Below, one piece after another: positions 988 through 35,406 of a DNA stretch of 35,688 nt (position 1 is its first letter; every line of letters starts with the position of its first letter). Both the position numbers and the translations under genes were made by a program. Source of the DNA: Pirellulales bacterium (GTDB lineage Bacteria; Planctomycetota; Planctomycetia; Pirellulales; Thermoguttaceae). Below the pieces are notes generated by a model. That model had not been told where the DNA came from. It searched no databases and saw only the letters and a program-made list of their open reading frames with translations. The DNA lies in assembly GCA_030605745.1 (NCBI GenBank), contig JAUWHT010000153.1, positions 1 to 35,688 of the forward strand, in the 5' to 3' direction.

Positions 988-1020
988 GTGGTTCTCCTTG
1001 TCTTGGTTTTGAAGAGTACC

Positions 1021-1128
1021 GTTTAGCCGCCGGGCTTGCCCGGCGCGTTGCCTGGGGGACAATTCGCTCTTGGGGTGGCAGTTTAACTGCCACCCCATCA
1101 ACGCGCCGGGCAAGCCCGGCGGCTAAAC
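1021..1128. repeat. family A palindrome (GTTTAGCC...GGCTAAAC), with a second hairpin GGGGTGGCAGTTTAACTGCCACCCC in its loop
   Basis: Left arm gtttagccgccgggcttgcccggcgcgtt; right arm aacgcgccgggcaagcccggcggctaaac; internal hairpin at 1072-1096. Confidence 0.95.
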
Positions 1129-2952: not shown

Positions 2953-3036
2953 GTTTAGCCGCCGGGCTTGCCCGGCGCGTTGGTGGGTATCAATGCGCTC
3001 GAGCGCAAACGCGCCGGGCAAGCCCGGCGGCTAAAC
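2953..3036. repeat. family A palindrome
   Basis: gtttagccgccgggcttgcccggcgcgttggtgggtatcaatgcgctcgagcgcaaacgcgccgggcaagcccggcggctaaac. Confidence 0.95.
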
Positions 3037-3964
3037 GAATTTGCTTCACGATATAATTCTCGACGAAATAATCCAATCCACCCCAGCGGCCCGCTGCGGT
3101 CACGGCAACCAGGAACAGGGCAACCATCTCGACGAAGTCCTTGTTGACCAGCAGGGCGTGTCCGGCCACTGGTGGGGCGGGCGGATAGATGGTCGGCCAG
3201 GCCGGCTGAGTGAGAACCACGAAGAACATGAACACTCCCCCACCCAGCGCCGCCGGCCGTGTGAATAACCCCAATATCAGGCACAAGCCGATCGCCGTCA
3301 GCCCGTAAGTGACCGCGAAGTTGATATAGTGGGCCATCGTCCAGGGCACCGGCAGCGGTCCCATTTCCTTCTGTTCGGCAGAGAGCACATTCCAGAGCGC
3401 CTGTTGGTAATCCTCGCCCATGGCATCCAGTTCGGTCAGCCAGACGCCGACCTCGCCGCGGAGCTTCTGCATCTCGTTCCAGGCACGCTTTTTATGGAAT
3501 GCCGCACCATTGTTGCCGGCCGCCTTCCGGGCCTCGAAGTGGTCCAAGGCCCCAAAGTAGGCGGCTATATCTTCCTGGTTCTCCAGTAGGTAATACCTGG
3601 CTGAATCCCTATAGCGTTGGCAGATTTTGTCGATCTCGTGCTTCTGCTCGTCGTTAAGCCTATATTTCCTTACGACCTTTTCTTTCAGATTGTTCCACGC
3701 GTCGACGTATTGCGAGCCCAGGATCACTTCGCCGCTGGCGAGTTTTTCGATTTTCAGCCGCTGGTGCCCGTCGACGTCGGGCAGCATCGCGTAGAAGATC
3801 CAAGCCGCCGGGCCCTTCGCCTGAAGCAGGAAACCTTCGGCCGAGAACTCCGGATGCGCGATCTTCCACACTCCCTCGTAGAGAAAGTGAAAACCCAGGC
3901 TCAGCCGCAGGATCACCATCATCACTATGGTAGCCACGCCGATTTGGAATTTTTTCTCAAACAC
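2990..3964 (-). CDS. DoxX family membrane protein; last ~15 residues encoded by a repeat
   Basis: MFEKKFQIGVATIVMMVILRLSLGFHFLYEGVWKI and C-terminal TM helices typical of DoxX; tail RLAAGLARRVCARAH* is translated from the 2953-3036 palindrome. Confidence 0.8.
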   Translation of the reverse strand: MFEKKFQIGVATIVMMVILRLSLGFHFLYEGVWKIAHPEFSAEGFLLQAKGPAAWIFYAMLPDVDGHQRLKIEKLASGEVILGSQYVDAWNNLKEKVVRKYRLNDEQKHEIDKICQRYRDSARYYLLENQEDIAAYFGALDHFEARKAAGNNGAAFHKKRAWNEMQKLRGEVGVWLTELDAMGEDYQQALWNVLSAEQKEMGPLPVPWTMAHYINFAVTYGLTAIGLCLILGLFTRPAALGGGVFMFFVVLTQPAWPTIYPPAPPVAGHALLVNKDFVEMVALFLVAVTAAGRWGGLDYFVENYIVKQIRLAAGLARRVCARAH

Positions 3965-6807: not shown

Positions 6808-7236
6808 GTGCCCAGCCTGACTCTCGCTACCCTTGTGCAAGTGTCGATCTTCGCCGCCAATGCCGACACCTACGCCGCGGCCCACCACATGGCCACCGAA
6901 ACAGGCAAGCCGATGGTGGTGATGATAGGCACCGAGTGGTGCAAGCCGTACCAGAAGATGGAGAGAACCGTTCTGCCGCAGCTTCGCAAGCACGGGCTGC
7001 TGAAGAAGGTCGCGTTCGCCGTCGTCAACCCGGATCGCGAGCGGGCCCTGGTAAAGAAACTCACCGGCGGCGGCCCGATCCCTCAGTTGCTCATGTTCCG
7101 CAAGACACCAAAGGGCTGGAAACGCAGAAAGCTCGTCGGCGGCCAGAGTATCCACACGGTCGAGAAGTTTATCAACCAGGGAATTGCCCTGGATGACACG
7201 AGCAGGAAGACCGCACCTGGCAAGCCCGGCGGCTAA
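6808..7236 (+). CDS. thioredoxin-like protein with single-Cys WCKPY site; C-terminal APGKPGG from a repeat
   Basis: GTG start preceded by taaggag; GKPMVVMIGTEWCKPYQKMERTVLPQL; GGPIPQLLMFRK (cis-Pro). Confidence 0.75.
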   Translation: MPSLTLATLVQVSIFAANADTYAAAHHMATETGKPMVVMIGTEWCKPYQKMERTVLPQLRKHGLLKKVAFAVVNPDRERALVKKLTGGGPIPQLLMFRKTPKGWKRRKLVGGQSIHTVEKFINQGIALDDTSRKTAPGKPGG

Positions 7237-11054: not shown

Positions 11055-11123
11055 TGTGCGCCGACCGGTTGTGTTGACAAACCGATAGAAGTGCATATTC
11101 TATACTCTTACGAACTGGCGAAG

Positions 11124-11246
11124 CATAAAGCCGCGACCGTTGGTCGCGCCCAGCGGTTCTGAGGAAACCGCGTGATTGCTTGCTCAATCGCGACCACCGG
11201 TCGCGGCTTTATGGCTCAATCGCGACCACCGGTCGCGGCTTTATGG
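11124..11246. repeat. family B palindrome (CATAAAGCC...GGCTTTATG) with right arm duplicated in tandem (32-bp period)
   Basis: cataaagccgcgaccgttggtcgcg ... ctcaatcgcgaccaccggtcgcggctttatgg x2 (11183-11214, 11215-11246). Confidence 0.93.
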
Positions 11247-11278
11247 GTGACCCCCAACAACGCGATTTGGTCGTTAAG

Positions 11279-14463: not shown

Positions 14464-14551
14464 CATAAAGCCGCGACCGGCGGTCGCGCCAGCGCGCCGG
14501 CCACGACCACCACTAGAACCAAACGGCGCGACCACCGGTCGCGGCTTTATG
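14464..14551. repeat. family B palindrome, 1 nt from the predicted dus start
   Basis: cataaagccgcgaccggcggtcgcg ... gcgcgaccaccggtcgcggctttatg. Confidence 0.92.
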
Positions 14552-14626
14552 ATTGGTGCCCCACACCTCACATAAACCCCTAAATATCTGCCTTTCGCAG
14601 GAAATATCAAGGGGTGCACAGTCGCC

Positions 14627-14687: not shown

Positions 14688-14800
14688 TTGGACGTAACGA
14701 CGGGTGCCATGCTCACGCTTGTCGTGGGCAAGGCACTATGCTAAAATTAAGGTCGTGTAACGCTCCAGCCGTGGACAAATACAGGCCGCCGTGCCGGCGG

Positions 14801-14894
14801 CCGCTAAACGGTCGATTCTCATGCTTAGCAGGCCGCTAAACGGTCGATTCTCATGTTTAGCAGGTCGCTAAACGGTCGATTCTTATGTTTAGCA
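14801..14894. repeat. three tandem 32-bp hairpin units GCTAAAC-N13-GTTTAGC
   Basis: ccgctaaacggtcgattctcatgcttagcagg / ccgctaaacggtcgattctcatgtttagcagg / tcgctaaacggtcgattcttatgtttagca; flanked by ccgccgtgccggcgg and ccgccggtacggcgg. Confidence 0.93.
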
Positions 14895-33105: not shown

Positions 33106-33123
33106 ACGAAGACAATCCAAAAG

Positions 33124-33149
33124 GCGCGACCGGCGGTCGCGGCTTTATG
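33124..33149. repeat. family B right half-arm at convergent junction
   Basis: gcgcgaccggcggtcgcggctttatg. Confidence 0.85.
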
Positions 33150-33156
33150 CTCAAGG

Positions 33157-35406
33157 TCATTTCCGCAGCGGGGCCGGGCTCGGCTGCTCGGCGGTACGGA
33201 TCGGTGCGGTTTGTCCTTCCGCGGCTGGTCCGTCCTGGTAGAAGCGGGTGGTTTCCTCGCTGACCAGCCGGGTTCCCAGCGGCTTGCAGTGGACCTCGGC
33301 GCGGAAGATGTGATTTCCGGCCGTCTCGGCACGCGCGGAGATTTTCAGGATCAGGTCGCCGCCGGCAGGCACCGACGGAATGGGGCTGAAGACCACCTGT
33401 CCCGGGCCGATTTTGTGTCGGCCGCCCTCGACGGCAGTCGGTTCGATGCCGTTGGAGAAGTAAGCGAGCACCTCGACGTTCTCGGCACTCTTGGTGCCGC
33501 GGTTGCGGATTCGCAACTCGTAGGTCGCCTCTTCGCCCACCGGCACCGGCCCCGTGGGGTCCTTCACGTCAAGCACCAGGTCGGCGATGGCTTCCACTTC
33601 GGTGGTTATGCCTGCCGTGGCGGTCAAGTCGCCGTCGGCGGTTGAGACGATTTCCATGCGGCTGGGGCCGGGCAGGCCCAGGCTGCACTTGAGCGTGAAG
33701 CTCTGTTCGCCGCCCGGATCGAGCTTTTCCAGTGCCCAGAGCACTCTGGTCCCGTTGGCCTCGAGTTGGCTGCCGTCGATGCTGGAGAGGTACTTTGCGC
33801 CGGCCGGGATGTTGACCGACATTTTGAGGTTTTCGGCCGGCGCAGTTCCCGGATTTCGCACGCGAATCCGGTAGCCGGCCACCGCGCCCACATATTGGAC
33901 GGCCGGTCCCTGCACATCCACTTGCAAGGCGGGCCGGCGGACCAGTACCTGCTCGGCCAACTCCGCGCGGGCGCCCCCGTCTCCGCGAGCTTCGACCTTG
34001 ATCATCAGGTTTCCGACCTGCCGGGCGGTCAATTCCACCTCGATGGCTTTCTGCTCACCAGCGGCGATCGTGCCCAGGTCGTGCGAAACCGGCTGATTCC
34101 CATCTGCCCCCATCGGCAGCAAACGGATGATCACATTCTCGGCTTCACCGTTGCCCGTATTGGCAAGCTTCAACCGGTAGATTTCCTTCCTGCCGTAGAG
34201 GACCTCGCGGGGCCCTTCGAGGGTCATTGCGAGCTTGGGCTGCTGGACTTCGATCATCGTCTTGGAGCCAACCGGCTTGGATTCCCAGCGGACTGCCAGA
34301 TCGAAGGGGCGGTTCTCGCGGGGCACGATCGTCAGGACCAATTTCTCCCGGCCCTTTGCTTCGAGGTGTCCGATCTTCCACACAAGCGGTCCAGCCGGCT
34401 CGCCGGCGGCCGCCCGGTGCGCTGCACCCTTGCTGGCTTCGGCGGCCGATACGTCGGCCCACTCGGGAAGATCGACAAAAACCACGACGTCTTCAGCCCG
34501 CAGGTCACCCGCATTGCGAATGGTCACCTCGTAGGACGACTTCTTGCCTACTGAAATCCGCCGCGGCCCGACAGTCTCGACGCTCAGCACCGGTCCTTTG
34601 TTGGTAAACAGCACGGCGGCGTCCGGCTCTGTCCCGATATCGGCGGTCAACCTTTTGGCCGGTTTCCGGCTTGATTCGGCCGCCGGAGAGACAACGGTTT
34701 TCTTCCGGACCGCCGGTGTAGTACGCTGCACGATCACCGGTCGAGTGCTCGGCGCGGCGTGAGTTGCACGTGTAGGCGTCATATTCGGGCGTTTCTCCGC
34801 CATCCGAACCGGCTGATCTACAACAGGTGGATCGGTGGCGGCGTCCGGTTTCGGATTGACCTTCGGACTCGGCTTGCTCGGCGAGCTTTCGTCGAACGCC
34901 GACCGCCGAAGCGCCGCCAGACGTTCGTGCAGGGGACGCGTGGCGGGAGAATTAGTCGCATCCTGTTGGGGTGGCAGTTCAACTGCCACACCAACACCGC
35001 GTTTGGACAAGGTTTTCGAATCGCTCTTTGGCCTCTGTTGGGGTGGCAGTTCAACTGCCACACCAACACCGCGCTTCGAGTTCGACGGGGCCGCCATAAT
35101 GCTGCCGGCACGTGGCCTGCTCCCATTGCGGTGCGGATAGAACTTCCGCGTTGCAGACCGAGGGTCAGGTCGACGCATCTTATTGCTGTTCCCCTCGCCG
35201 GGAAGAATCCCATGGAGAATCGAACGACCGAAATCGCCTACCTGCTGACCGAGGTCACCCACCTGCTCGACCAGCGTCTTCGCATACTTCGGAGGGGTAG
35301 GCATCGCTCGGTTAGGACCCGGCGATGGTCCCTGGGCAAAGACCGTAGAGGAAATCCCCCAAACCCCAAAGGCCAAAACGGCCGCGGTAAATCTCTTTGC
35401 TAGCAT
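33157..35406 (-). CDS. secreted protein with multiple DUF11/CARDB-like repeats
   Basis: Signal peptide MLAKRFTAAVLAFGVWGISSTVFAQ; repeated patterns SYEVTIRNAGDLRAEDVVVFVDLPEW, YRLKLANTGNGEAENVIIRLLP, YRIRVRNPGTAPAENLKMSVNIP, YELRIRNRGTKSAENVEVLAYF. Confidence 0.88.
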   Translation of the reverse strand: MLAKRFTAAVLAFGVWGISSTVFAQGPSPGPNRAMPTPPKYAKTLVEQVGDLGQQVGDFGRSILHGILPGEGNSNKMRRPDPRSATRKFYPHRNGSRPRAGSIMAAPSNSKRGVGVAVELPPQQRPKSDSKTLSKRGVGVAVELPPQQDATNSPATRPLHERLAALRRSAFDESSPSKPSPKVNPKPDAATDPPVVDQPVRMAEKRPNMTPTRATHAAPSTRPVIVQRTTPAVRKKTVVSPAAESSRKPAKRLTADIGTEPDAAVLFTNKGPVLSVETVGPRRISVGKKSSYEVTIRNAGDLRAEDVVVFVDLPEWADVSAAEASKGAAHRAAAGEPAGPLVWKIGHLEAKGREKLVLTIVPRENRPFDLAVRWESKPVGSKTMIEVQQPKLAMTLEGPREVLYGRKEIYRLKLANTGNGEAENVIIRLLPMGADGNQPVSHDLGTIAAGEQKAIEVELTARQVGNLMIKVEARGDGGARAELAEQVLVRRPALQVDVQGPAVQYVGAVAGYRIRVRNPGTAPAENLKMSVNIPAGAKYLSSIDGSQLEANGTRVLWALEKLDPGGEQSFTLKCSLGLPGPSRMEIVSTADGDLTATAGITTEVEAIADLVLDVKDPTGPVPVGEEATYELRIRNRGTKSAENVEVLAYFSNGIEPTAVEGGRHKIGPGQVVFSPIPSVPAGGDLILKISARAETAGNHIFRAEVHCKPLGTRLVSEETTRFYQDGPAAEGQTAPIRTAEQPSPAPLRK
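34963..35073. repeat. two exact 39-nt copies of CTGTTGGGGTGGCAGTTCAACTGCCACACCAACACCGCG inside CDS
   Basis: 34963-35001 and 35035-35073, 72 nt apart; each encodes RGVGVAVELPPQQ on the - strand. Confidence 0.95.

Follow-up and report, generated by a model that had tools for sequence, protein, structure and literature searches.

Repetitive extragenic palindromes (REPs) of the GTAG and CGTC families occasionally lie wholly within open reading frames (ORFs) and in frame, sometimes two to an ORF. Linkers and loops have been proposed as the sites that tolerate them, and among the GTAG families the verrucomicrobial O. terrae has the most intragenic REPs (Di Nocera et al. 2013, PMC3733652). The classic in-frame insertions into unrelated protein genes are those of the Rickettsia palindromic elements (RPEs; Ogata et al. 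2000, as related in PMC10969869 and PMC3733652).

We analysed a 35,688-nt stretch of DNA (the window), contig C42 of a draft Pirellulales genome of 3.47 Mb in 460 contigs that is ~90% complete. Near its end, a gene for an exported DUF11 protein contains two copies of a 33-bp palindrome. With a probability of roughly 0.85, this feature is an interspersed palindrome of the REP or RPE kind that entered, in frame, a linker under low constraint and was then locally duplicated. Several pieces of evidence support the insertion: (i) The unit is dispersed and sharp-ended and lacks a target-site duplication. (ii) The orthologues are empty. (iii) In-frame copies occur in other genes. (iv) Other palindrome families are found in the same protein and in the same loop. 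The phenomenon is already known for small bacterial repeats, and what is new here is the 33-bp family: the best-known cases of in-frame palindromes come from Rickettsia and tagged REP families, to which we add an untagged family of Pirellulales.

Like intragenic REPs, the element is a small palindrome (of the 20–40 bp class, and within the 20–50 nt range that defines REPs) with tens of copies, 28 in the window's genome and 94 in relatives, that lie mainly outside genes. Unlike them, it has no GTAG/CGTC tag, the positional consensus having no conserved bases past TGTTGGGG or CCCCAACA, and no palindrome-flanked RAYT gene was found adjoining it: none of 36 Y1_Tnp/RAYT loci in five genomes, the drafts of which are incomplete, has a copy within ~1.5 kb. 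Because the tag and a linked RAYT are missing, the family is REP-like rather than REP. With RPEs it shares the in-frame position in unrelated genes (five here) and the addition of a peptide at tolerated sites. As the sources cited above describe them, however, RPEs are ~150 bp long, belong to the Rickettsia lineage and lie in ORFs in nearly half of cases, whereas the present element measures 33 bp, occurs in Planctomycetota and has ~6% of its surveyed copies in genes. It resembles MITEs in being a short, non-autonomous repeat with sharp ends, but is far shorter than their 70–300 bp and has neither terminal inverted repeats apart from its body nor a target-site duplication. As in the RAYT/TnpA-REP and REPIN systems (PMC8266576, PMC3116915), the same genomes have Y1 transposases flanked by palindromes, in this case of other families. 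One such RAYT-flanking family has entered a DUF6798 loop in frame, whereas no cognate enzyme was found for the 33-bp family at the 36 loci.

The repeat unit and its distribution

A positional profile of 28 copies from the window's genome and 94 from public genomes delimits the repeat unit as TGTTGGGGTGGCAGTTYAACTGCCACCCCAACA, a length of 11 codons. Information content exceeds 1 bit inside the unit and is near 0 outside TGTTGGGG...CCCCAACA. The unit is a simple palindrome, symmetric except for a single central base, and the reading frames open across it number four of six in the T variant and five of six in the C variant. Direct repeats of 2–8 nt flanking it, examined for five assumed boundaries as possible target-site duplications, were not clearly above chance. 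No Rfam family matched in the window.

The initial annotation had suggested searching the genome for the repeat. In the window's draft genome, the 17-nt core TGGCAGTTYAACTGCCA matched 28 sites when one mismatch was allowed, 17 of them exactly, whereas the reversed pattern matched none. Since dinucleotide shuffles of the window gave no core match against six observed, and the reversed control none against the 28 genomic copies, a chance origin of the palindrome repeats is excluded.

The genomes compared were the window's own and 99 relatives, nearly all of them draft MAGs. Exact cores number 17 in the window's genome (G000), 29, 45 and 19 in three genomes of one genus (G003, G040 and G058, respectively) and 18 in G015, with 0 or 1 in the other relatives searched; many copies are thus found in the window's genome and in only four other Pirellulales genomes among the 100. 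A pattern of 22 nt from the core matched 78 stretches in six MAGs among 84,980 species genomes, and the matches come from planctomycetes. There was no match in IMG/VR that would indicate carriage by phages, and the only match among plasmids, a weak and partial one in Halorussus (E 0.9), we take as chance. This distribution is that of a lineage-restricted interspersed repeat. One public MAG, JABMRB01 (L067, L069, L070 and other loci), is titled Candidatus Nealsonbacteria. Its matches coincide with G015, a genome assigned by the search to the same family as the window, and the public entry is probably a mislabelled or mixed bin.

The window's intergenic copy sits in the loop of a second, larger palindrome (Table 1), and the initial annotation correctly recognized its hairpin as the core of the in-gene copies. 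Within the window's genome, 15 of the 28 copies lie within 60 bp of this second family (GCCGGGCTTGCCCGGC), compared with none of the 94 copies in other genomes, and the 33-bp unit is therefore independent of it. On the same count we rejected the idea that the hairpin is merely the loop of the larger GCCGGGC palindrome.

Table 1 Features of the 33-bp palindrome family and its host gene in the window.
Feature	Position	Strand	Details
Second palindrome family (CGTTTAGCCGCCGGGCTTGCCCGGCGCGTT and its inverse)	1020–1128		Arms 1020–1049 and 1099–1128; loop contains the intergenic 33-bp copy
Intergenic copy of the 33-bp palindrome	1068–1100		2 mismatches to consensus
Host gene	33157–35406	−	749-aa exported protein, DUF11/CARDB domains (ORF and Pfam)
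In-gene 39-nt copy 1	34963–35001	−	Encodes RGVGVAVELPPQQ, residues 136–148; 33-bp palindrome at 34964–34996, 1 mismatch to consensus
In-gene 39-nt copy 2	35035–35073	−	Encodes RGVGVAVELPPQQ, residues 112–124; 33-bp palindrome at 35036–35068, 1 mismatch to consensus

Two copies in the linker of a DUF11 protein

The host protein matches the Pfam families DUF11 (4.8e-29) and CARDB (3.9e-15), and its N-terminal third is a low-complexity linker region. Coordinates and ORF bear out the initial report of two exact 39-nt copies, 72 nt apart from start to start, that encode a duplicated peptide; both are in frame and give identical 13-residue stretches. The exact repeat does not extend beyond 39 nt on either side, and identity at the protein level reaches SKRGVGVAVELPPQQ. 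The repeat unit proper measures 33 bp; the remaining 6 nt of the 39-mer are private to the in-gene pair. Two conserved motifs, RAGSI and PLHERL, bound the variable linker in which the copies lie and to which they contribute 26 of 54 residues. The initial annotation was thus right to place them in a linker, but not in placing it just after the signal peptide, which lies ~90–120 residues upstream.

Homologues of the DUF11 protein were found in all 100 related genomes searched. In the orthologues in which both motifs were found, the linker ranges from 44 to 96 residues, and because of this variation the empty site of the window's gene is not cleanly alignable; clean empty sites come from other genes. 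Neither the peptide nor the hairpin is present in any of 29 orthologues read in detail, so that the sign of ordinary protein sequence named by the initial annotation, distant orthologues carrying the peptide, was looked for and not found. According to that explanation, GVGVAVELPPQQ is a conserved or selected repeat motif, the codons of which resemble a hairpin by accident. The copies are indeed in frame, and low-complexity linkers often contain duplicated peptides. However, the in-gene copies agree at 32 of 33 nt with a family that has 28 copies in the genome, mostly intergenic, the peptide is missing from those 29 orthologues, and a SpoU gene uses a different frame of this DNA. We regard an ordinary protein repeat as exceedingly improbable; in practice, the family at the DNA level and the use of a second reading frame refute it.

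A selected role could instead lie in the mRNA, as a structured linker that slows ribosomes between the export signal and the folded domains, or in the function of the peptide. The RNA does fold strongly (121 nt, −54.7 kcal/mol, z −5.65), the copies lie between the signal peptide and the folded domains, and in the related genus the DUF11 orthologues of G003 and G058 have two in-frame copies of another palindrome, GGACAGGTTGGCAACCTGTCC, in a downstream linker. This other family has 32 copies in G003 and 59 in G058, and none in the window's genome. Strong folding, however, is inherent to palindromes, the 33-bp palindrome is missing at this position in the orthologues, and the element also occurs in unrelated genes and at intergenic sites. 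A selected role is accordingly very improbable, and most likely the inserted residues serve no specific function.

The two copies share a GGG to GGT substitution (in the coding sense) that occurs in no other copy of the window's genome, and they share a CGCGG flank on one side only. The initial annotation had the hairpin entering the gene twice. In favor of two independent insertions of a mobile palindrome into the same linker, the gene does hold two copies, two REPs per ORF have been described (PMC3733652), and the Ser-Lys codons preceding the copies differ by two synonymous changes. The unique shared substitution and the CGCGG flank on the same side nevertheless argue for local duplication, and we consider two insertions unlikely. 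A single insertion followed by local duplication or copying fits the sequences better and is the more likely course of events.

The element in other genes

We screened 122 copies with a codon model and for ORFs, assigning them as coding or intergenic from the fetched loci. Seven (~6%, including the window's pair) are inside long coding ORFs, a count that requires an open frame across the element and thus misses frame-breaking insertions. Because only ~6% of the surveyed copies are in genes, although the genome is mostly coding, selection against coding insertions is likely.

Besides the DUF11 gene, four unrelated genes of relatives, five in total, contain the element in frame, in each case in a linker or loop. 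In a SpoU rRNA methylase of G040, 17 extra residues (ACWGGSSTATPT...) separate the substrate-binding and catalytic SpoU domains. The insert is absent from the same-genus orthologue (76% identical), from 29 other aligned orthologues, one of which (L166) has a longer linker unrelated to the element, and from the solved homologues 1ipa and 4x3l. Filled and empty sites are thus documented in a conserved enzyme. A loop of a DUF6798 membrane protein of G040 contains an insert of ~30 residues, whereas in most relatives the whole loop consists of only a few. In G015, a TPR/alpha-2-macroglobulin protein has the element in frame, and its orthologues are without the insert. A TPR protein of G003 is 11–12 residues longer than the common form, or about one 33-nt unit. 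A second macroglobulin match in L082 (LQFDPVAVQLPPERV), counted among the seven coding copies, is without the outer arms and represents a possible insertion only.

The element is read as CWGGSSTATPT in the SpoU gene and as GVAV.LPPQ in the others. The two readings use different frames, and the inserted peptide is therefore a by-product of the DNA. The initial proposal of a mobile or duplicating hairpin tolerated as a protein linker is upheld in that the family is dispersed, absent from the 29 DUF11 orthologues, located in a linker and present in four unrelated genes; its mobility we infer from the distribution and from the comparison of filled and empty sites.

The unit may spread by copying through a single-stranded hairpin intermediate, on which a Y1/HUH (RAYT-like) enzyme would probably act in trans. 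This enzymatic step is put forward as a hypothesis because no such enzyme lies beside the 33-bp family (0 of 36 loci). With a length of 33 nt and four or five of six frames open, an insertion would often leave the gene readable, and only insertions in linkers would survive selection. A length that is a multiple of three and open frames thus help to explain how genes survive insertion. It is a further step to suppose that the unit was itself selected for tolerance by genes, through these properties and the lack of a target-site duplication, and that in spreading through coding and intergenic DNA it became a recurrent source of linkers in planctomycete proteins, which we consider quite unlikely. 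Insertion at tolerated sites followed by local duplication, our preferred reading, lends support to the idea that small repeats are a source of sequence for protein linkers. A warning follows as well, as identical peptides in unrelated planctomycete proteins can reflect repeat DNA rather than homology.

Other palindrome families and Y1 transposases

Different palindrome families enter the same protein and the same loop across related genomes. The DUF6798 loop that holds the 33-bp element in G040 is occupied in its congener G003 (L172, G003:C345) by an in-frame, REPIN-like inverted doublet, CACTGCTGG...CCAGCAGTG, of a third family. This family has 225 copies in G003 and 558 in G058, and at L230 it flanks the gene for a RAYT-type Y1 transposase, which contains the motif PEHVHLI. 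The doublet and this transposase indicate that, in the same lineage, a REP family that has a transposase of its own close by has entered a gene in frame.

The window itself has a third palindrome family, GCCGCGACCGTTGGTCGCG...GGCTTTATG, at 11121–11259, 14464–14565 and 33117–33163. At L061 (G000:C254), a Y1_Tnp gene lies between copies of the same family, and the two are probably a RAYT-REP unit of the window's genome. The flanks of another Y1_Tnp gene, at L062 (G000:C209), carry CGTTTAGCCGGCGTGCTTGCACGCCG, a sequence similar to the GTTTAGCCGCCGGGCTTGCCCGGCGCG family of the window; this gene is a candidate mobiliser of that family.

Two genes of the window, at 2990–3964 (minus strand) and 6808–7236 (plus strand), have their last codons and stop region within the GCCGGGC palindrome family. 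The resulting C-termini are ...LAAGLARRVCARAH and ...TAPGKPGG, and the TAA of GGCTAAAC terminates the second gene. In this respect the family resembles REPs in the literature that supply stop codons. A tandem array of GGCCGCTAAACGGTCGATTCTCATGCTTAGCA, with three copies of 32 nt each, lies at 14799–14894, immediately upstream of a nitroreductase-like gene.
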